Assembly: GCA_006218065.1 (NCBI GenBank) | Contig: VBWE01000017.1 | Location: 1-58,106, forward strand | DNA from: Bacteroidota bacterium | GTDB lineage: Bacteria > Bacteroidota > Bacteroidia > Palsa-965 | Length of the DNA: 58,106 nucleotides | Direction: 5' to 3' | Shown: positions 2,055-13,287 of the stretch, one piece after another | How the letters are laid out: every line of letters starts with the position of its first letter | Position numbering within the stretch: the stretch's first letter is position 1 | The notes under the pieces: model-generated | What the model was told of the DNA's origin: nothing | Databases searched by the model: none | Seen by the model: the letters and a program-made list of their open reading frames with translations, nothing else | Program-made: the position numbers and the translations under genes

Positions 2055-3548
2055 ATGAAGCGGAATGACATGACCCATGAGCTGGTGCGCTCCCTCAGCA
2101 AAAGTGAAAAGCGCTTCTTCCAGCTGCAGTCCCGCACGACCGACCGGGAACAGAAGAATTACCTGCTGGTGTTCGATGTGCTCAGCAGCACGAAAACGTA
2201 TGACGGACACGTACTGCTCACCGGGCTGAAAGGGAAAAAAATGAACCTGTCCTACGAAAAAAAGTACCTGCAGGAACAGATCATGCGCAGCCTCCGGAAT
2301 TTTCACACCGGGCTCAGTTCAGCTACCATCCTTTATGATGCGCTCCGCGATATCGAAGTTCTTTTTAAAAAGCGGTTGAATACGCTTTGTTTTGCGCGCG
2401 TCAGGTCTGCCCAGGCCTTCGCGGAGCAATATGAAAATTACCCGGCGTTGCTGGCGCTTATCGATTACGAATCCAAGCTGATCTCGCGCACAGGCGACTA
2501 TGAAAAACTCTGGAATTACCGGAAAGAAGGCTACATCAAAAAAACCGGTGCACTGCAGGCCTGTGAACAAATAACCCATGCCGAATGCCTCGTTTTTGAA
2601 GCCACCGTAATCCTGCAGCGAAAGGGAAGCTCGGCCAGCACAGAGGAAAAAGAAAAGTTGCGCGGAATACGTGCCGGGTTAAAACGGTTGTTGAAAGACA
2701 GCCGGAAAAGTTTCCTGCTGGAAGAACTGTGCCTGATCGGGCTGTATCTCTGCACAACGATCAACGGCGGGCTGAAAGAATCGTACAGGTACAGCAGGCG
2801 CACAGTCGGGCTGTACTGGAAAAACGAATGGCAGCTGCATGACAGGCCCGGTCGTTTTTTTGCATCGTCGATCAACCTGGTAAACCGCTGCATTCTTCTC
2901 GGTGAATATGATGAAGCATGGCGCTGGCTTGAAAAAACAAAAAACGCGATGGAAGATTTGCGTAAGCCCGCCATACAGGAAATGTACGAAGAGCTGATGC
3001 CCGTCATCTATTCCCTCGCATTCCGGATATCCGCCGGCAGGGCCGATTTTGCCAAAGGACTTGAGCTGGCAAAGGAATTCGACCGGTTCGAGAAAAACAT
3101 AAGCGTTCCTTTAAGGGCGAATACCATCATCAGCATGCGCCTGCATATCGCCCGTCTTCATTTCGGCGCTGCGGAATATGCGAAAGCATTACAAAAGCTG
3201 AACCAGGTTATCAACTGGAAGCAAACAGAGCTGCAGGAAGATCTTGTGCAGTTCGCTTACCTGTTCCGCCTGCTGGTTTATTATGAAATGAAAAAATACG
3301 AGCTGTTGGAAAACCAGCTTGCGTCGGTATCACGATTCTTCAGCAGCAAGTGGTCTGCAAATAAAAAAGGAGCATTGATCTGCAAAGCGCTGCATGATGT
3401 ATTGCATGCAAAAAGCAAAACGGCCGAAACAACGCTCTTGCAGCAATTTAAAAAACGTTTTCGGAAACATCTCCGGCAGGAATACATGGAACATGAATAT
3501 GCCGATTTTATCCGGTGGGTGGATGCGACGTTGGGAAAAGGAACGTAA
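2055..3548 (+). CDS. Conserved Bacteroidota protein of unknown function, helical/TPR-like
   Basis: This is a 497-residue protein without signal peptide or obvious membrane segment, so it is probably cytoplasmic. The N-terminus carries a SLSKSEKRFFQLQS stretch. I recall similar KSEKRYFKL openings in uncharacterised Bacteroidota proteins of about 500 residues, but cannot confirm the family here. The remainder is rich in charged and aromatic residues in alternating amphipathic helices (for example around residues 290-420), consistent with TPR-like alpha-solenoid pairs. No catalytic motif is visible. It stands alone between two secreted FDPGPG-repeat proteins and is transcribed divergently from the one on its left. 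ATG 2055 is used; a second in-frame ATG follows five codons later, so the start could be slightly downstream. No function is proposed. Confidence 0.8.
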   Translation: MKRNDMTHELVRSLSKSEKRFFQLQSRTTDREQKNYLLVFDVLSSTKTYDGHVLLTGLKGKKMNLSYEKKYLQEQIMRSLRNFHTGLSSATILYDALRDIEVLFKKRLNTLCFARVRSAQAFAEQYENYPALLALIDYESKLISRTGDYEKLWNYRKEGYIKKTGALQACEQITHAECLVFEATVILQRKGSSASTEEKEKLRGIRAGLKRLLKDSRKSFLLEELCLIGLYLCTTINGGLKESYRYSRRTVGLYWKNEWQLHDRPGRFFASSINLVNRCILLGEYDEAWRWLEKTKNAMEDLRKPAIQEMYEELMPVIYSLAFRISAGRADFAKGLELAKEFDRFEKNISVPLRANTIISMRLHIARLHFGAAEYAKALQKLNQVINWKQTELQEDLVQFAYLFRLLVYYEMKKYELLENQLASVSRFFSSKWSANKKGALICKALHDVLHAKSKTAETTLLQQFKKRFRKHLRQEYMEHEYADFIRWVDATLGKGT

Positions 3549-3709: not shown

Positions 3710-5482
3710 ATGAAAAAAAACCTCATAACCCTGATCGCGGTCGCCTCCTTTGGCTTCACGCATGCGCAAAACATGCTATTGAACTGGGCAGATCCGCTGA
3801 CTTCAGCGACTACAACATCATCGTACGGATTGTGTATCGGCACTTATTCCGGAAACGACGTTTTTTCTGCAGGAACATTCCAGTCCGGTGCAACGGGTAT
3901 TGATTTCGATCCCGGCGCCGGTGTATTCAGCCTTGTTTCCACCGGGGCAATGACCGATATGTACATTACCCGGATAACTGCGTTAAATCTTTTTAACTGG
4001 GCCATCCGGGTTGATGGTACGGGAGAAGAAATACCCACGCGTATCATCAGCAACGGCAGCGCCGTTTACGTGGTCGGGTATTTTACACAGACCGCCAACT
4101 TTCCGACCAGCAAAACATCCGCAGGCGGTGAAGACATGTTTATTGCGCGTTATGATATGAACGGGAACCTCGTATGGGTTAACCGTATCGGCAGCATAGG
4201 CCAGGATCGCGCGATGGGCATTTGTTTTGACGCTGCGGGCAATTTACTGGTGTGCGGATTTTTTTCAGGAACCGTCGCTTTCGATCCGGGCCTGGGAAGA
4301 TGGTCGGCGCTGACAAGCTACGGCGGAACGGATGCTTTTTTCGCCCGGTACAGTCCCGGCGGAGCGCTTATGGGTGTTGCGCACAGAATCGGCGGTGTTG
4401 GTAACGACCGGGCTATGGCTCTTACAACGGATAAGATCGGGAGGATCCTTGTTTGCGGAAACTACGGACAACCCAACTGCGATTTCGATCCGGGCCCGGG
4501 TACGGCCTTTCAACCCAACGCGGGCAGCAGGGATGCATTTGTTGCGAGTTATTCCAGCGTGGGCGTATACAATTGGGCGAACACTTTTGGAAACGCATTC
4601 GACGATGACCTGCTGGATGTAGTAACCGATGTCGTTAACGATGTGTATGTCACCGGTGGATTTGACCAGGGTACCATCGCCATTACAGCACCTGCGTTTA
4701 CCAATTTTGCAACTGCCATGGGATTGGCGGATATTATTCTCGCCAAATGCAACAGTGCCGGCGTATGGCAATGGTCGGAGAAAGTGGGTGATGTGGATGA
4801 CGATGTTGCAAACGCTATCGGCCTGGACAGTAACAACCATGTTTACATCTCCGGCTATTTTGCGCTCAATGCCGATTTTGATTTTTACGGCGCAGATCCG
4901 ACAGCTATGGTCAGCAGCCTGGGCGGATCCAGGGATATTTATATTGCCCGGTACAATATGACTACAGGCGCCTACAATGATGTGGATGTGATTGCCGGTA
5001 CGGATATGGATCGCGGGCATGGTATGGCTATAGTCGGTACCCTTCCTGCCGTTTACCTGACGGGGGAATACGGAGCCGCGAACACGGATTTTCTCACCGG
5101 CCCCGGCACCTTCAACTTAGTTCCCGGGCCAGTCGCAGTGTTCAATTCGTTCATCGCCAAATACGATCCGACACCCTTACCGCCTATTCATCCCGGCGGC
5201 GGAGGCACGGACAACCAGAAACAGGCAGTAACAGGAAACGTGCATGCAGCCAGTGTTTACTACCCCAACCCGGTTTCCGGCACACTCTTCATTGAAAATA
5301 TCCAGGACGGCGTTCTTGCAGAAATCTATTCACTGGACGGAAAAAAAGCGGGAACATGGAATGCAAACGAAAGCAGCAAACTCGCACTCGATCTCAGCAA
5401 TCTTTCCGGGGGTATGTACCTGCTCCGTATCACGAAAACTGACGGCAGCTTCAGCACAGAAAAAATTATTGTGCAGCATTAA
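3710..5482 (+). CDS. T9SS-exported FDPGPG/SBBP-repeat surface protein
   Basis: The start ATG 3710 gives a clean signal peptide (MKKNLITLIAVASFGFTHA-Q) and a mature protein of about 570 residues. Repeats of about 60 residues carry FDPGxG turns and xxARYDxxGNLVWVxRIG strands, the same beta-propeller/SBBP type as the protein ending at base 1870. The last 75 residues form a T9SS type A sorting domain: YYPNPVSGTLFIEN, then a LAEIYSLDGKK strand and a final GGMYLLRITKTDG...EKIIVQ strand. The protein should therefore cross the outer membrane through the type IX machinery and be released or anchored at the surface. An upstream in-frame extension exists but would start within the promoter. The binding partner is unknown. 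Confidence 0.88.
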   Translation: MKKNLITLIAVASFGFTHAQNMLLNWADPLTSATTTSSYGLCIGTYSGNDVFSAGTFQSGATGIDFDPGAGVFSLVSTGAMTDMYITRITALNLFNWAIRVDGTGEEIPTRIISNGSAVYVVGYFTQTANFPTSKTSAGGEDMFIARYDMNGNLVWVNRIGSIGQDRAMGICFDAAGNLLVCGFFSGTVAFDPGLGRWSALTSYGGTDAFFARYSPGGALMGVAHRIGGVGNDRAMALTTDKIGRILVCGNYGQPNCDFDPGPGTAFQPNAGSRDAFVASYSSVGVYNWANTFGNAFDDDLLDVVTDVVNDVYVTGGFDQGTIAITAPAFTNFATAMGLADIILAKCNSAGVWQWSEKVGDVDDDVANAIGLDSNNHVYISGYFALNADFDFYGADPTAMVSSLGGSRDIYIARYNMTTGAYNDVDVIAGTDMDRGHGMAIVGTLPAVYLTGEYGAANTDFLTGPGTFNLVPGPVAVFNSFIAKYDPTPLPPIHPGGGGTDNQKQAVTGNVHAASVYYPNPVSGTLFIENIQDGVLAEIYSLDGKKAGTWNANESSKLALDLSNLSGGMYLLRITKTDGSFSTEKIIVQH

Positions 5483-5656: not shown

Positions 5657-6370
5657 TTAAAGATCAATCATAGCTAATAGATCTGCTCGAATTCTCTCAC
5701 AACTCTGATTGAGGTTAATTGTTTTCACGCTAATCTTATAGCCCCCAAAGGGATAAGTGTAGTCAAGTTGTTTTGAAACAGTCGGATAAAGTAATATTCC
5801 CTCAATTTTTAGATCTTTTTTATCGCCATCTTGGGAATTTCTGACATATGAATATATCTGGTAAAGGTTACTGGGGTTGATATGCTGTTTTTCATAATGA
5901 GTCTTTAAAACCTCTTGATAGTATTTGGTATCAATAATGATCTTATGTGTAGAGGAAGTAAGCGATATATCTGTATTCATATAAGGTAATAAGTTATGCG
6001 CTTCAGTCGAGGGTGTATATTTTCCCTTTATTAGGTACCAATCGGGGAACGATTGGATACGACAGTATTCACGCACTGTTAAAATACGCGGCTCACAATA
6101 ATGAATATAATCATCAGGGAGTGTTGTAAGAGTGGGGCTAAGCCCATTTTCATCTAATGGAATAACAGTATGTTTGTTTGTACCTAGTTCTTTTTTTAAT
6201 CGCTTACTGATAATTTTATTCTTAGTCCCATTATCCAAAATAAACTGAAATTTGGCAATTGTAGGCGGTTTGTGGTTTGCAAAGCGGTGGCTATCCGGTA
6301 TTAGTGTGTTTACACCTACTCGCATCAAACGTTGATAATTGCTAGATACAGGTGTGTAGACTGTAACCAT
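5657..6370 (-). pseudogene. Chimeric remnant: C5-methyltransferase C-terminus fused to McrC C-terminus
   Basis: Residues 1-119 match the C-terminal third of a DNA cytosine-5 methyltransferase. They contain HRFANHKPPT, the target-recognition/motif IX region (PLDENGLSPTLTTLPDD) and PRILTVREYCRIQSFPDWY before motif X. The catalytic PCQ part is absent, and so is the final GN(A)V motif. Residues 127-237 instead match the end of McrC, the partner of the McrBC restriction GTPase: LLPYMNTDISL, then KIIIDTKYYQEVL (the IDxKY nuclease-like motif), then NLYQIYSYV and GILLYP. The switch falls near residues 119-127, about 5989-6016. The simplest reading is a deletion joining adjacent methyltransferase and mcrC genes in frame. 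It is AT-rich compared with its neighbours and ends abruptly at 6371 against the next element. It is unlikely to be active as either enzyme. I am confident of both halves, less so of the event. Confidence 0.75.
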
Positions 6371-6371
6371 A

Positions 6372-6539
6372 AACGGGGTTGAAGCAGAAACCCCGCAGCA
6401 GGCCCAGCAGGTTGCTGATGCGCTGACTGAAATTAAAAACTGGTTGAGCGATCCCGACTTATTTGAACTGGCCGCCCTGCTCCGGGAAAATCCCGGTATT
6501 GTTCAGAAAGCGAAATCCTATAAAAACTTCTTAAAATGA
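6372..6539 (+). pseudogene. 3' fragment of an element gene, 5' part lost
   Basis: A frame without start codon runs from about 6372 to TGA 6537-6539. An in-frame TAG lies at 6357-6359, before the junction with the methyltransferase/McrC remnant. It encodes about 55 residues, including ADALTEIKNWLSDPDLFELA and ending KAKSYKNFLK, with codon use like the following genes. Its TGA overlaps the ATG of the next gene (ATGA at 6536-6539), the tight coupling of an operon. This is the tail of a gene whose front was removed, which shows that the three-gene cassette was once longer. The product is not recognised. Confidence 0.65.
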
Positions 6540-7549
6540 AACTGCTTCCCGGTTCGGCAATAACGGGTACGCTGGTCAAGTTGGGGTTGATCGGCGGGGG
6601 GGTCTTTTTGCTTTGGCGGTGGTTCAAAAAAAACCAAGACGAAAGACGGGCCTCGCGCTCGGATAAAGACATTACTACAAACCCCGGCGTTGGTCAGGCC
6701 CAACTACTCCGCATTGCCATGAACCCGTCCGGGGTTGCCCTGCTGTTCGATAACGACGGAACCAACAAAGACGCCATTTTTAAAGTAGCCTCACAGATCA
6801 AGGATTTAGATGCGGTTGTCGAAGCCTACAAAGACCGCTATTCCGGCAGCTTGCTGAAACATCTCGAAGTGGAATTAGGCCCGGCAGATTACGCCCGGTT
6901 CCTTGCCCTTTCCGGCGGCGGAAACTCTACCGGGAATAACTACGAGGTTATCAAACAAGGCGTAAAGCCGATGCAATGGATGAGGGCCACAAAACCGGCG
7001 TTCGTTCGCTCGGCCCCTAAAAAGGAAAACGGACTGTTTTCGACCGAAGGCTTTTTGATTAATTCACTTAACCCGCTTACGTTTTTCGATAAGTACAAAC
7101 AAAAAGGAAACATCATTACACAGGCCCAGCCGCAGGAAGTGGTCGGTTGGACAACTGGCAAAACATCTTACGATGAAAAAAACGACATTATTTTTTTGGA
7201 AGGTTTGACCTTGAACAAAAAAAGGCAGCGCGTCAGTTTTTGGATTGCCAAAAGCCAAGTTGAATTTATTACTCCTGAAGACTTAAAAGCGCGGCGGTCA
7301 CGCGGGGAAAAGTTCCGCATGACCGAATTAAAAGGCTTGCCTTCCCCTACTACTATCTATGCGATTAAGCAAACCGATATACTCGATGAATCTTTCTGCA
7401 AAGTTGCAACCGTTTCACCAGGCACTGTACTCGGGCAGCCCTTGATTATCCTGCACCTTGTTAATGAAAAATTTATCCAGTTCCAAAACCAACAGGGACT
7501 TATTCGCTGGACTGTACTCAATGCCGTGCGCCAAAACACAAACAGCTAA
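6536..7549 (+). CDS. Element-encoded membrane protein with annexin-repeat-like segment
   Basis: The protein has 337 residues. One hydrophobic segment near residues 13-29 (LVKLGLIGGGVFLLWRW) is followed by a basic stretch, predicting an N-terminal membrane anchor. Residues about 70-125 (GTNKDAIFKVASQI, then YSGSLLKHLEVELGPADYARF) resemble an annexin-type repeat by spacing and residue pattern. This is a pattern impression, not a proven homology. The rest is beta-rich and unrecognised. The start overlaps the stop of the truncated upstream gene, and its TAA shares an A with the ATG of the glucosaminidase gene (7549), so the genes are translationally coupled. A structural or cell-envelope role in a phage-like element is plausible but not shown. 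Confidence 0.75.
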   Translation: MKLLPGSAITGTLVKLGLIGGGVFLLWRWFKKNQDERRASRSDKDITTNPGVGQAQLLRIAMNPSGVALLFDNDGTNKDAIFKVASQIKDLDAVVEAYKDRYSGSLLKHLEVELGPADYARFLALSGGGNSTGNNYEVIKQGVKPMQWMRATKPAFVRSAPKKENGLFSTEGFLINSLNPLTFFDKYKQKGNIITQAQPQEVVGWTTGKTSYDEKNDIIFLEGLTLNKKRQRVSFWIAKSQVEFITPEDLKARRSRGEKFRMTELKGLPSPTTIYAIKQTDILDESFCKVATVSPGTVLGQPLIILHLVNEKFIQFQNQQGLIRWTVLNAVRQNTNS

Positions 7550-8217
7550 TGCAGTACGATGAACTATACGATTTTCCGACGCTCTTAGGACTGCTTGACA
7601 GCTACGAGGTTTACGGCTTATCCGGGATAACGGAAAATGACCGGGCAGCGTTCGTATCTAAACTGCTGCCGGTGGCAAAAAAAGTCGGCCAGCAGTTTAA
7701 TATCAATCCCCTTGTGATCGTTTCGCAGGCCGCTATCGAAAGCGCGTGGGGAACCTCTTACATGGCTAAAAACATTTTCAATTTTTTCGGTGTCACGGCC
7801 TACGGAAAACCTAACCAGTATTGGACTGGTGAAAAGTACGTTTCAAAAACATCGGGACTCCCTTTCAGAAAATACAAAGACGCGGAAGCAGGGTTTTCGG
7901 ATTTTGCCCGGCTGATTTCTTCCAAGTATAAAACATCAGCCAGTGTTTCTAATAACGTGGACAGCTACGCGAAAAGCATTGCGTATAGTCCCTATATCAG
8001 CGAAAAAAACGGCGATAACCGCGAAAACTATCGCAAGGGAATTGTCGATAACGCAAAGAAAATTCTTGCCCTTAGTACAAACCTTCCGGCGCAAGTTGTT
8101 CAAACAGTCAAAAATCTTTCGCCCGAAACAAAACAGGCCGCTACTGGCGGCCTTGTGGTGATCGGGATAACGGGCCTGCTTTTTTTCGCCCTTTCGTCAA
8201 ACTCAAAAAACAAGTAA
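7549..8217 (+). CDS. GH73-type endo-beta-N-acetylglucosaminidase with C-terminal membrane anchor
   Basis: Residues about 30-175 form a FlgJ/GH73 glucosaminidase domain, which cuts the GlcNAc-MurNAc bond of peptidoglycan. Visible marks are INPLVIVSQAAIESAWG with the likely catalytic Glu64, then KNIFNFFGVTAYG, then FRKYKDAEAGFSDFARLI and YATSIAYSPYI-like spacing. There is no N-terminal signal peptide. Instead the C-terminus has a hydrophobic segment (about residues 196-216, GLVVIGITGLLFFALSS) followed by a short basic tail, so it is tail-anchored. This arrangement differs from a secreted autolysin and suits a lytic enzyme carried on a virion or inner membrane. It sits between a membrane protein and an LPD1 protein with overlaps of a few bases. 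Confidence 0.85.
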   Translation: MQYDELYDFPTLLGLLDSYEVYGLSGITENDRAAFVSKLLPVAKKVGQQFNINPLVIVSQAAIESAWGTSYMAKNIFNFFGVTAYGKPNQYWTGEKYVSKTSGLPFRKYKDAEAGFSDFARLISSKYKTSASVSNNVDSYAKSIAYSPYISEKNGDNRENYRKGIVDNAKKILALSTNLPAQVVQTVKNLSPETKQAATGGLVVIGITGLLFFALSSNSKNK

Positions 8218-8219
8218 CC

Positions 8220-9404
8220 ATGAACCTTAAAGAACTGGAAAAAAAATATCTTGGCTTTAGCGGTCAACGATCAATCGCACAAGTGAAAAACCTGTTAGCG
8301 GAAGCCAACAATGTACCCATACCGGGAAACGGCCCCGATGCTAAAAAGCTGATCTATATTCGCCGCCAGCTTACCCGTGTGCTGCTCGCATTGATTAATT
8401 CCCGGCAACAGGCGATTATCGTGGTTATCGAAGAAGACAATTTCGACTTTCTCGAAGACGATAAATCGCTGGGTAAATTTTCCGACAAAGGAAAACCGGC
8501 GCCGGGAAGCAAGCAAGACAAATACTGGGAACGGCAAGGATATACACTGGTCTTTGATCCGGAAAGCACCACATACCGCAAAGGGCCGAAACTACCTGCT
8601 AATTTGAAATTCAACAGCGAACAATCCATTATCGAGTATTTCCATTTAGCCGGTGTCGAATACGGAAACTGGCTCAGTCAGAACGACCGGATAAATTACC
8701 TTGCCGGGGCCGCGATGGGCCTTTTCGATATGATGCAGATACTTGGGTTCAATGCTCAACAGGTAGGAATGTATGAACTGATAACCCTTGCCTTTGGCGC
8801 ACGCGGTTCAGGTAGTGCCGTTGCTCACTTTGAACGCGACAGCTTCGCCATTAATATTACACGGTATGACCGGCCCCCGGCAGTAAACAAACGTCCTAAA
8901 GACTTTGACCGGAAGAACTATCTTAAATCCCTGGGCGGAGTCGGTGCGCTCGTGCATGAATACGGCCATGCGCTCGACTGCTACGCCGGGCGTTTCATCG
9001 AAAAGGACAAATCTTATTATGCCTCCGGGGGGCGATCACTGCGTGCAACACCCGATAAGAAACTGCTAAAACAAAAATCCCTGCACGGAGTGCTGGAACG
9101 CATTATCGCAAAAATGCTTTGGGACAGTTCGGGCAAAAACAAATCGGCTTTCCATGAACGCCTGTTAAAGATTCCTGTCGGACAGGATTATTATTTGAGA
9201 AGAAATGAACTGTTCGCCCGCGCCTTTGAAGTCTATTTCCAGTTCAAAATGAAAAAAGCCGGTCGCTACAATTACTTTATTCACGAAAAAAAATATGACG
9301 GCGGGGTTTACTTAACTGAAAAAGAAGCCCAGCGCATATTGCCGGACATGGACGAGTTCATCAGAATGATTAAACCCAAGATTAAAAAAGTAAGCTCTAA
9401 ATAA
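8220..9404 (+). CDS. LPD1-type polyvalent-protein domain, predicted zincin
   Basis: This is a 394-residue cytoplasmic-type protein. Residues about 140-260 match the pattern of the large polyvalent protein-associated domain LPD1 known from phages and conjugative elements: VEYGNWLSQNDRINYL, LITLAFGARGSGSAVAHFE, INITRYDR, then GGVGALVHEYGHALDCYAG. The HEYGH motif (His245 to His249) is the zinc-protease HExxH signature. LPD1 occurs in proteins delivered with mobile DNA, so this gene supports the mobile nature of the region. The substrate is unknown. It begins two bases after the glucosaminidase stop and ends at a strong bidirectional terminator. I recognise the LPD1 pattern from memory. Confidence 0.75.
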   Translation: MNLKELEKKYLGFSGQRSIAQVKNLLAEANNVPIPGNGPDAKKLIYIRRQLTRVLLALINSRQQAIIVVIEEDNFDFLEDDKSLGKFSDKGKPAPGSKQDKYWERQGYTLVFDPESTTYRKGPKLPANLKFNSEQSIIEYFHLAGVEYGNWLSQNDRINYLAGAAMGLFDMMQILGFNAQQVGMYELITLAFGARGSGSAVAHFERDSFAINITRYDRPPAVNKRPKDFDRKNYLKSLGGVGALVHEYGHALDCYAGRFIEKDKSYYASGGRSLRATPDKKLLKQKSLHGVLERIIAKMLWDSSGKNKSAFHERLLKIPVGQDYYLRRNELFARAFEVYFQFKMKKAGRYNYFIHEKKYDGGVYLTEKEAQRILPDMDEFIRMIKPKIKKVSSK

Positions 9405-9421
9405 ACTCCCCGGTTGCTGTT

Positions 9422-9458
9422 AAAAAAGGGTTGGCCTGAATAGGTCAACCCTTTTTTT
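9422..9458. terminator. Bidirectional intrinsic terminator
   Basis: GGGTTGGCCT (9428-9437) pairs with AGGTCAACCC (9442-9451, one G-U pair) across a GAAT loop. Six A upstream and seven T downstream flank it, so it works on both strands. It separates the LPD1 gene from the convergent gene at 9460-9741. Confidence 0.9.
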
Positions 9459-9459
9459 G

Positions 9460-9741
9460 TTAGAGTAGGACATCAGCAATTTCAGTTAAGGGGGTAACAG
9501 CAATGTGATCGGAAGCGATCATCTCGTGTTCCGGTTTTTTCTTTAATTCTTCGGCCAGCTTCTTTTCATCCTCGTTCATATCCGGTTTCCATATTTCCCG
9601 TAAGCCTTTCCCGGTATAATAAATCGCGTTGCCTTGTTCAACCCGGATGCTGCCGTAATTGGTAAGCTGGCCATTACAAAAAAGCAGTACACCGGCACGA
9701 TTCCCGATAGACAACAGGAGCAGCTTTTTTTCTGTAATCAT
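9460..9741 (-). CDS. Small hypothetical protein of the element
   Basis: The 93-residue product has a hydrophobic start (LLLLSIGNRAGVLLFCNG) and a charged middle (DMNEDEKKLAEELKKKPEH). No family is recognised. The ATG at 9739-9741 is preceded by AGCAGGA at good ribosome-binding distance. It is the only minus-strand gene in the element and converges with the LPD1 gene across the terminator. Its upstream flank is the element's control region, so it could be expressed independently of the other genes. Coding status rests on the intact frame, the ribosome site and the terminator placed exactly at its end. Confidence 0.6.
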   Translation of the reverse strand: MITEKKLLLLSIGNRAGVLLFCNGQLTNYGSIRVEQGNAIYYTGKGLREIWKPDMNEDEKKLAEELKKKPEHEMIASDHIAVTPLTEIADVLL

Positions 9742-9999
9742 AATCCTGCTTTGTTAGTGTGTTTGCCTGCTAAGTTACATTGTTGGCCTATGGGATGTTT
9801 CCAATAACGGAATTAAATCCTTGCCGCCGGTCCCGATATCCGGTTTACTCCTGGTCTATTCCACCTGCAGCCAGATCCCTTTCCCTCCCTCCTTACCTTT
9901 GCTTACCCGCGAACATCACACACCGGCAAGTTGGGATAAACATACCCTGCACCCACAAAGCCATTACCTGTAACCTGCTTACATAGCCGGGCTGAAAGC
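9742..9999. other. Non-coding part of element control region
   Basis: I see no convincing gene in these bases. They contain the upstream flank of the minus-strand gene at 9460-9741 and lead into the phased repeat array that begins near 10000. Together with the array and hairpin this is the longest gene-free stretch of the window (9742-10383). Confidence 0.6.
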
Positions 10000-10190
10000 T
10001 GTTTTCGCCTGTTTTATACTGTCCCACATGGTCGAATTCGTGCTGAATCGTGTCTGTTCAAGAAAAATAGTGTCAGGGTGGTGTCAAAATCTGTCGAAAA
10101 TTGTCGTAGGGCTGTTGAATCCTGTCGAAAATTGTTTTTCTACTGTCAAAACTTGTTCTGCTACTGTAAAAGAGCGGTTCGGGATATGTC
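10000..10190. repeat. Helically phased TGTC/TGTT array (iteron- or operator-like)
   Basis: TGTC, TGTT or TGTA words begin at 10071, 10082, 10092, 10102, 10113, 10123, 10133, 10144, 10154 and 10165. The spacing is 10-11 bases with mean 10.4, exactly one helical turn. Less regular words extend the phase leftward (10000, 10010, 10020, 10051, with degenerate GGTC at 10030 and TGCT at 10041) and rightward (10187, two turns on). Between words there are often A-rich stretches (TGTCGAAAAT appears twice, TGTCAAAAT and TGTCAAAACT once each). Such one-face arrays are known for cooperative DNA binders, such as centromere (parC) repeats, recombination directionality factors and origin iterons. Which applies here is unknown. 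Confidence 0.75.
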
Positions 10191-10205
10191 AGGGATAAGT
10201 AAAAC

Positions 10206-10244
10206 TGCGGTATTTGACCTGTCTTATGCAGGTTAAATACCGCA
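10206..10244. other. 16-bp inverted repeat between the array and the regulator gene
   Basis: TGCGGTATTTGACCTG (10206-10221) pairs with CAGGTTAAATACCGCA (10229-10244), with one G-T pair and a 7-nt loop TCTTATG. No T run follows, so it is not a typical terminator. An operator, a recombination accessory site or an origin hairpin are possible. Confidence 0.65.
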
Positions 10245-10317
10245 TTTACACTGGCCAATAACAGTAACAGAATCCGATTTGTACCATAAAAAGACTGTTC
10301 TTAGACCTCAACCAACA

Positions 10318-10337
10318 TACAAATACTTGTATATTTG
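10318..10337 (+). promoter_or_regulatory. Operator/promoter of the MerR-like regulator
   Basis: The palindrome TACAA-ATAC-TTGTA (10318-10331) overlaps the -7 element TATATTTG (10330-10337), sharing the TA. Transcription would start near 10341, about 43 bases before ATG 10384. The same composite site occurs at 11306-11325 before the recombinase operon, so the regulator probably controls both. Confidence 0.7.
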
Positions 10338-10383
10338 TCTCCGACACATAGAAAACCAGCATAAAGCATAACTGAATGACCAA

Positions 10384-11280
10384 ATGATACACCTTAGCCA
10401 GTTCTTCGACATTGATACGCACGAGAAAGCAAAACAACTGCAAGAGTTTTTGATAGAGGAACAGCCTTTTTCTATCGGGGACTCAAAAGTTCCCAGCAAC
10501 AACCTTCAGAACTATTTTAAATATGGTTTGATTAATCCCCCTTCGGGCAACAAAGTACATTACCGGTTCAATTTTATAGAACTGATTTGGCTGAATATGG
10601 TAGCCGACCTTAGAGATATAGGCGTACCTATTGACACCTTACGCCTATTAAACAAAGAACTGAATACAAGCATATCGGAAAAAAAACTATACCGCTTCTT
10701 AAAAGACAACCCCCACTTGATAGACAGTTTGCCCATATCCGCTAAAGAAAAAGCTAAAATCAAAAAAGAAGCCCAAAGCAAAGACTGGTCAAAAGAGAAA
10801 GGGAAAAACTCGTTCACTTTTTTACAACTTTTGATTGCTCATGCCATTGTTCACCGGGAACTGGTATGTATTGCGGTTTTCTTAAACGGAACCTTTGCCC
10901 CATTGATCGACGCGATCTACTCCCCGGAGAACAAGGAATTGCTTTACCACTTGAAAACACAGATTTATTACAATGTCCCGGTATCAGGGTATATGCAATC
11001 AGTGATCGGCGAAAACCGCTTTGAATCCATGCTGCCCCGGATTGGGCTTTTTACTGACAAGGAACTTAAACTGCTTGAAATTGTTCGCTCCGGTGAATAT
11101 CAAAGCGTAACTGTCCGCTTTAAAAACGATAAGATGAACGTTATCGAAATGGAAAAGTCCGTAGATGTTCACCGGCGGCTGATTGATATAATTTCCGAAA
11201 GCCCTTTTGCCCATATTTCCGTACACACCCAGCATTACAAGCCCGCCCAAGTTAAACACACTACCAAAGTGAAAGTTTAA
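10384..11280 (+). CDS. MerR-like DNA-binding regulator of the element
   Basis: The 298-residue protein carries a MerR-type winged helix-turn-helix at about residues 30-100. FSIGDSKVPSNNLQNYFKYG resembles the first helices, followed by GLINPPSGNKVHYRFNF (the wing) and ELIWLNMVADLRDIGVPIDT (helices of the LRxLG type). The C-terminal 190 residues are not recognised and lack a cysteine-rich metal-binding loop, so the inducer is unknown. It lies between the phased TGTC array and the recombinase genes, and two identical TACAA-N4-TTGTA operator/promoters precede it and the recombinase operon. Autoregulation and control of integration or excision are the natural inference. It could instead act as a directionality factor, as some MerR-fold excisionases do. 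Confidence 0.75.
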   Translation: MIHLSQFFDIDTHEKAKQLQEFLIEEQPFSIGDSKVPSNNLQNYFKYGLINPPSGNKVHYRFNFIELIWLNMVADLRDIGVPIDTLRLLNKELNTSISEKKLYRFLKDNPHLIDSLPISAKEKAKIKKEAQSKDWSKEKGKNSFTFLQLLIAHAIVHRELVCIAVFLNGTFAPLIDAIYSPENKELLYHLKTQIYYNVPVSGYMQSVIGENRFESMLPRIGLFTDKELKLLEIVRSGEYQSVTVRFKNDKMNVIEMEKSVDVHRRLIDIISESPFAHISVHTQHYKPAQVKHTTKVKV

Positions 11281-11305
11281 TAGCCCAGGTCTATCCGACC
11301 AAACA

Positions 11306-11325
11306 TACAAGCATTTGTATATTTG
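11306..11325 (+). promoter_or_regulatory. Operator/promoter of the recombinase operon
   Basis: TACAA-GCAT-TTGTA (11306-11319) overlaps -7 element TATATTTG (11318-11325). Counting the CA before the palindrome, 18 of 22 bases from 11304 or 10316 onward are identical to the site upstream of the regulator gene. It lies just after the regulator's stop codon and about 135 bases before the next start codon. Confidence 0.7.
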
Positions 11326-11353
11326 AAAATTATCCGTATCTTTACAGGAGATG

Positions 11354-11403
11354 CAGGGGCGTCCCCCTGTATAAAAACAGCAGCCGAAAAAAGGCGGCTT
11401 TTT
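11354..11403 (+). terminator. Leader hairpin and terminator-like stem before the recombinase operon
   Basis: CAGGGG (11354-11359) pairs with CCCCTG (11364-11369). Further on, AGCCG (11382-11386) pairs with CGGCT (11395-11399) and runs into TTTTT. Both lie between the promoter at 11318 and the start codon at 11460, so read-through past a leader terminator may limit recombinase expression. Confidence 0.5.
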
Positions 11404-11459
11404 GCGTACAGCTTTCGGTAACACCGAACATGTAAACCAAAGGCACACCCGACAAAAAG

Positions 11460-11647
11460 GTGAAACGCAAGTATGAAGATTTAACCCCGGAAAACATAAG
11501 AATGTTTCCGGGACTTGAAAACTTAAATGACGAGCAGGCGGCAGTGCTGGCAGAAAAAATAAACACGTTCGCCGCATTGCTTGTAAGGGTTGATTTAGAA
11601 AATATCACACCCTACAATGAAGAACCGTTTAAAACGAAAAAAAGAAA

Positions 11648-11651
<4 letters not shown>
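11460..11651 (+). CDS. Small protein translationally coupled to the recombinase
   Basis: A 63-residue, highly charged protein with the core YEDLTPENIRMFPGLENLND and a basic tail. No ATG is available: the frame has a stop at 11433-11435 and the first usable codon is GTG 11460. Small acidic/basic proteins of this kind with a TPEN...PGLENL motif are, as I recall, found just upstream of serine recombinases in Bacteroidota elements. Its TGA overlaps the recombinase ATG (ATGA at 11648-11651), giving translational coupling. It may be a recombination accessory factor or simply a coupling cistron; nothing in the sequence decides this. Confidence 0.65.

Positions 11652-13287
<1,636 letters not shown>

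Follow-up and report, generated by a model that had tools for sequence, protein, structure and literature searches.

In an element of a Bacteroidota bacterium, we identified an array of about 22 polar direct repeats, spaced one helical turn apart and located upstream of the genes for a MerR-like protein, a small conserved protein and a large serine recombinase, and arrays built on other words recur in related elements. We put the probability at roughly one half that the array serves as a long operator and that the MerR-like protein, assembled on it as a filament, controls the recombinase operon. The window, that is, the whole stretch of contig VBWE01000017.1 that was analyzed, spans 58,106 nt, and the features discussed here are collected in Table 1.

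The core of the array consists of ten TGT words that start at positions 10071, 10082, 10092, 10102, 10113, 10123, 10133, 10144, 10154 and 10165, with steps of 11, 10, 10, 11, 10, 10, 11, 10 and 11 nt, exactly where an earlier note on this DNA had placed them. A chain model fitted to all 22 units gave a mean step of 10.52. The earlier note had also reported weaker words keeping the same phase on both sides of the core; those at 10000, 10010, 10020, 10051 and 10187 are roughly in phase, whereas the one at 10055 is not. Across all TGT trinucleotides within 10000-10240, the best period is 10.40, with a vector strength of 0.76. The words are polar, with 17 TGT on the plus strand and 1 on the minus strand, and with 10 occurrences of TGTC vs 0 of GACA. 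Among all 3-mers, the longest chain advancing by 10 or 11 nt at a time in the region 9742-10383 comprised 10 words, compared to a maximum of 6 in 20,000 first-order simulations; no chain longer than 5 arose in a smaller run (n = 4,000), and the TGT array is the sole chain of at least 6 in the whole window. The helical autocorrelation, for which the earlier note had proposed a comparison with shuffled sequence, peaks at a period of 10.4, its score lying far above that of dinucleotide shuffles (z = 13), and by this score the array ranks first among the 2,315 windows into which the 58 kb were divided. Chance as the origin of the phasing is ruled out by these simulations and shuffles. The A-rich stretches between the words, which had been noticed before, also hold up: eight A-tracts keep the phase of the TGT words (vector strength 0.78), at an offset of about half a turn. 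A search against Rfam gave no match near the gathering score at the array.

Table 1. Features of the element and its control region in the window
Feature	Position	Strand	Basis
Cargo: membrane protein, glucosaminidase, LPD1-domain protein	6536..9404	+	profiles; same order in locus L032
Helically phased direct-repeat array, about 22 units, consensus ...TGTc.aa	10007..10238	+	chain fitting
Array core, ten TGT words	10071..10167	+	word positions and simulation
Inverted repeat, 24-nt arms 10198-10221 / 10229-10252, 7-nt gap	10198..10252		arm comparison
TATATTTG, promoter -7-like	10330..10337	+	sequence
MerR-like protein, 298 aa	10384..11280	+	profiles, model
Small conserved protein (63 aa) that accompanies many Bacteroidota large serine recombinases	11460..11651	+	homologue comparison
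Large serine recombinase, 535 aa	11648..13255	+	profiles
tRNA-Met (CAT), likely integration target	13214..13287	-	tRNA search and recombinase overlap

The recombinase contains the PF00239 and PF07508 domains, both above cut-off, and a weakly matching zinc ribbon (PF13408). The last 42 bases of its gene (about 14 codons; 13214-13255) lie inside the 3' part of the opposite-strand tRNA-Met gene. The array is located about 3 kb inside the element, away from the attachment site. No exact or near-exact repeat of the tRNA end, which would represent the other attachment site, was found to the left, and therefore no left boundary is assigned to the element. The 497-aa protein encoded at 2055-3548, which belongs to no assigned family, is matched 33 times in the genome that carries it, and each well-assembled relative contains several matches as well; because of these 33 matches, a search for empty sites by the left neighbor protein was uninformative. 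The cargo could comprise lysis or virion-like genes of the element. On the minus strand, a frame at 5657-6370 combines the C-terminal portion of a cytosine methylase with an McrBC-like tail and looks like a remnant of a restriction-modification system.

The MerR-like regulator gene that had been proposed to adjoin the array is supported by matches of its predicted product to PF13411 (MerR_1) and to profiles of solved MerR structures, which point to a MerR-type winged helix at the N-terminus (residues 34-88). The PF13411 match in the window protein scores 21.6 bits, exactly at the gathering cut-off of 21.6, and the domain was found in 15 of 19 family members. The structural model (mean pLDDT 80) likewise contains the MerR winged helix, and ordered regions are predicted beyond it. 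The best fold match is CvkR (7xn2; Z 10.2, rmsd 3.8, 132 residues), over residues 25-215; it stands well above the following matches, of which GlnR/TnrA come next. The Foldseek E value for CvkR, in which a dimerization domain follows the winged helix, is 0.34. In the model, residues 223-298 form a separate C-terminal alpha/beta part, with middling fold matches only.

Two further sites lie between the array core and the MerR-like gene. The inverted repeat, described in the earlier note as 16 bp long, is real but not a perfect 16: its 24-nt arms are 83% complementary, with a 15-nt core containing one mismatch, and it overlaps the last, right-end units of the array. It is a possible dimer site or hairpin. 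Further downstream, TATATTTG fits TAnnTTTG, the -7 element of Bacteroidota promoters, making this a putative promoter, and in the alignment of a subgroup of 16 related loci, TACATTTG occupies the corresponding place. The array lies about 90-320 bp upstream of this presumed promoter, not over it. Scans for sigma-70-like promoters and terminator-like structures gave about as many matches as in shuffled sequences.

We searched for relatives in 396 Bacteroidia genomes, including the genome of origin, and identified relatives of the MerR-like protein, mostly with 20-30% identity, in 38 of these. The gene order, a MerR-like protein of about 300 aa, usually the small protein, and the large serine recombinase, is constant in 21 of 21 loci (the window and 20 fetched loci). 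In 17 of the 21 (the window and 16 related loci), the recombinase frame enters a tRNA or tmRNA gene, these including tRNAs for Met, Leu, Pro, Glu, Arg and Asn as well as tmRNA; the C-terminal tails of the recombinases are encoded by the 3' ends of these differing genes, e.g. VAGTGLEPMTFGL. Tblastn against 72,556 plasmid and 50,697 phage records detected no relative of the MerR-like protein, and degenerate patterns based on the window protein, scanned against viral and genome contigs, likewise revealed none. Our literature search, of incomplete coverage, yielded no description of this cassette. The small protein, encoded ahead of the recombinase, represents a family of its own, without a Pfam match and with the motif LTxExxR..GxExxxDE, that accompanies most of the sampled Bacteroidota large serine recombinases, with or without a MerR-like protein, and is a candidate recombination directionality factor.

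The position of the MerR-like gene, usually together with the small gene, directly before the recombinase in all loci raises the alternative that the MerR-like protein, alone or with the small protein, is itself the directionality factor, with the array as the place where it loads to shape the excision complex instead of controlling transcription. The directionality factors known for serine integrases bind the integrase itself and are not known to require a long DNA array. The array here lies well inside the element rather than at the attachment site, and the small protein, which occurs in many loci that lack a MerR-like gene or an array, is the better candidate for this role. Although RdfS and lambda Xis provide examples of directionality factors with a winged helix that assemble into filaments (PMC11963761), we consider this alternative improbable.

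The phased arrangement is not confined to the window. Just upstream of the MerR-like gene lies the top helical window of the whole 12-18 kb locus in L032, L033, L034, L036, L038, L039, L041, L046 and L051, and in most of 18 further MerR-like loci the highest helical score is likewise found there. The words differ between lineages: GTTCTTA in the largest clade, TTCTATA in L041, GTTCTNGG in L032, ACTGAAAGTA in L114, GCTTTC/GTAGC in L113, TTATTTTACAC in L118, and CCCCGGAAT in L046, where the array is built on C-runs. By eye, L113 and L114, which encode related proteins, share the word GAxAGTA.GCTACAAGT. Polar words were also found in L033, L036, L046 and L114. In the 16-locus alignment, the words TCTTATA and GTTCTTA keep steps of 10, 11, 21 or 22 nt, and words and spacing are preserved together with two further blocks and the promoter-like TTACATTTG; inside the array, the periodicity of column conservation in this alignment is strongest near 21 bp, and at 10.5 bp no peak is convincing. 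Comparison with related elements, as suggested in the earlier note, gave a divided result: arrays with other words are present in most major branches of the MerR-like protein tree, and therefore chance is excluded, whereas L043, L044, L047, L048 and L050 carry the cassette without a phased array.

The first helical score that we used was misled by tandem repeats of 7 and 21 bp (L234, L248, L249, L256 and L260) and by a 42-bp coding minisatellite (L130); we therefore used a second score, based on odd half-multiples of 21, which rejects 7- and 21-bp tandem repeats. Some of the exact 7-bp repeats, located between genes near recombinases, are TTCTGAC in L234, GAAACCT in L256 and CTTCGAA in L260. 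Because the second score is noisier on background (at least 4 in 40 of 14,355 control windows, maximum 6.3), the strict cut was set at 5.5. By this cut, 22 of 41 MerR-like loci have an array, compared to 4 of 34 recombinase loci without a MerR-like gene (Fisher p = 0.0002); when the largest clade is counted once, the figures are 9 of 24 and 4 of 34 (p = 0.03). The remaining 19 of the 41 do not reach the strict cut, and in some of these MerR-like loci an array is clearly absent. Thus, given these exceptions and the arrays near recombinases without a MerR-like protein, the array is linked to the MerR-like gene but not exclusive to it.

Several loci depart from the common arrangement. In L043 and L044, CACTGGT repeats upstream are not helix-phased, and L044 contains large repeated modules with CACTGGT/ACCAGTG sites from -1320 to -470, counted from the MerR-like gene. 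L105 (-1300 to -1050, counted likewise) and L111 (-1150 to -870) each carry a second phased array, built on different words, beyond a divergent gene of about 171 aa. In L045, a phased AGGAATTCC array at 3900-4060 abuts the 3' end of a tyrosine recombinase gene, which, with its adjoining array, is 4 kb away. The arrays of L214 (7700-8000, minus strand) and L222 (4226-4475) lie upstream of a serine recombinase, and these strong AACGSAA arrays are embedded in the coding frame of a zinc-ribbon protein that occupies the MerR position, the 21-bp period corresponding to a 7-residue peptide repeat; such in-frame arrays suggest selection on the DNA.

Intrinsic curvature, by which phased A-tracts would bend the DNA, alone or via a host architectural protein (HU, IHF) and with no dedicated binder, is an explanation that we likewise regard as unlikely. 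It is in keeping with the shared phase of the A-tracts and the TGT words, with the arrays of L237 and L239, where no MerR-like gene is present, and with the control chromosome (363 kb), in which the strongest windows by the first score comprised no more than a coding minisatellite and a single stretch of phased A-rich DNA, the sole background match that is not a repeat. The specificity and polarity of the words in the window argue against it, as do the L046 array on C-runs and the L222 array on AACGSAA.

Somewhat less probable still is a binder other than the MerR-like protein, namely, the recombinase, the small protein or a clade-specific regulator, with the MerR-like gene merely a frequent neighbor. 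All four loci that have an array but no MerR-like protein (L214, L222, L237 and L239) encode the small protein and the recombinase, L237 and L239 carrying only these two genes beside the array, and in L214 and L222 the zinc-ribbon protein is a potential regulator. Conversely, 30 of the 34 recombinase loci without a MerR-like gene have no strong array, though most carry the small protein, and arrays are more frequent where the MerR-like gene is present.

A centromere of the parC type or a set of origin iterons, two of the three roles initially offered for the array, is very improbable: R1-type parC and many iterons do consist of polar direct repeats at close to one or two helical turns, but among the profiled element genes (5660-13255) we recognized no partition NTPase (ParA, ParM or TubZ), Rep, primase or helicase, and the MerR-like protein has no relative in the plasmid and phage records searched. 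The remaining role, in which a directionality or control protein binds the region, is favored because the array precedes a conserved cassette and because other kinds of winged-helix protein (BldC, RdfS and Xis) bind once per turn.

Under the operator reading, we infer that the MerR-like protein is the binder, that it binds head-to-tail and that recombinase control is the outcome. One protomer would occupy each helical turn on the polar TGTC-type words, with the winged-helix heads placed on successive turns along one face of the DNA. Ten to twenty or more protomers would then cooperate to build a nucleoprotein filament, which would bend or stiffen the DNA, and the filament would regulate the downstream operon of MerR-like protein, small protein and large serine recombinase, thereby deciding the timing of integration or excision of the element. 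The polarity of the words fits head-to-tail binding, not palindrome-bound dimers. We favor the filament because polar, once-per-turn words over 10-20 turns suit head-to-tail assembly of winged-helix proteins and because BldC, RdfS and lambda Xis provide precedents. The recurrence of arrays upstream of the MerR-like gene in relatives also speaks for it. The strongest evidence against the filament is the likeness to CvkR, which points to a dimer, though the inverted repeat could be the site of a dimer and the array that of the filament. Also weighing against it are the MerR-like loci below the strict cut, the arrays near recombinases that lack this protein, the weaker association once the largest clade is collapsed, the conservation periodicity of the 16-locus alignment, and the location of the array upstream of the presumed promoter. 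More tentatively, the window might exemplify a widespread, undescribed class of Bacteroidota integrative elements, in which arrays of 10-30 turns hold MerR-type filaments that switch the serine recombinase on or off, with the word diverging while the phase is kept.

Serine integrases are not known to need accessory DNA sites, and most of what is known of how their elements time integration and excision comes from phages. If the operator reading is correct, many tRNA-inserted elements would possess a clear, testable control site, the filament mode of BldC and Xis would extend to a new protein family, and the 10.5-bp phase, rather than any sequence, would offer a simple signature for finding such elements.

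The proposed binding mode is known in kind; the length of the arrays, the link to a serine recombinase, the diverging word with constant phase and the cassette appear to be undescribed in the literature searched. Classical MerR proteins bind as antiparallel coiled-coil dimers to a palindromic spacer between the -35 and -10 elements. The repeats here are direct, polar and upstream of the presumed promoter, and the inverted repeat is a candidate dimer site. The R1-type parC likewise consists of tandem direct repeats at about one helical turn; ParR is a ribbon-helix-helix protein paired with the actin-like ParM, and neither this fold nor this partner was found among the profiled genes. CvkR (Alr3614), the best fold match and also a MerR-type control protein inside a mobile element, is a repressor of type V-K CRISPR-associated transposons that binds as a dimer to a 15-nt inverted repeat (PMC9938897); it is about half the length of the MerR-like protein, and no phased array has been described for it. 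RdfS, the directionality factor of ICEMlSymR7A, and lambda Xis also belong to mobile elements and have a winged helix, and they are described as assembling head-to-tail on DNA (PMC11963761); they control excision, serve tyrosine recombinases and bind attP, unlike the internal array and large serine recombinase described here. The BldC operators of Streptomyces resemble the array in combining a MerR-type winged helix with polar direct repeats one turn apart, in numbers that vary between sites: on its direct repeats, BldC protects tracts separated by one helical turn, and it bends the DNA, the two sites described having 2 and 4 repeats (PMC5859096). BldC is a bare domain of 68 residues (PMC5859096), whereas the MerR-like protein considered here has about 300 aa (298 in the window), comprises a CvkR-like portion and another C-terminal part, and is predicted to bind arrays of up to about 20 turns.
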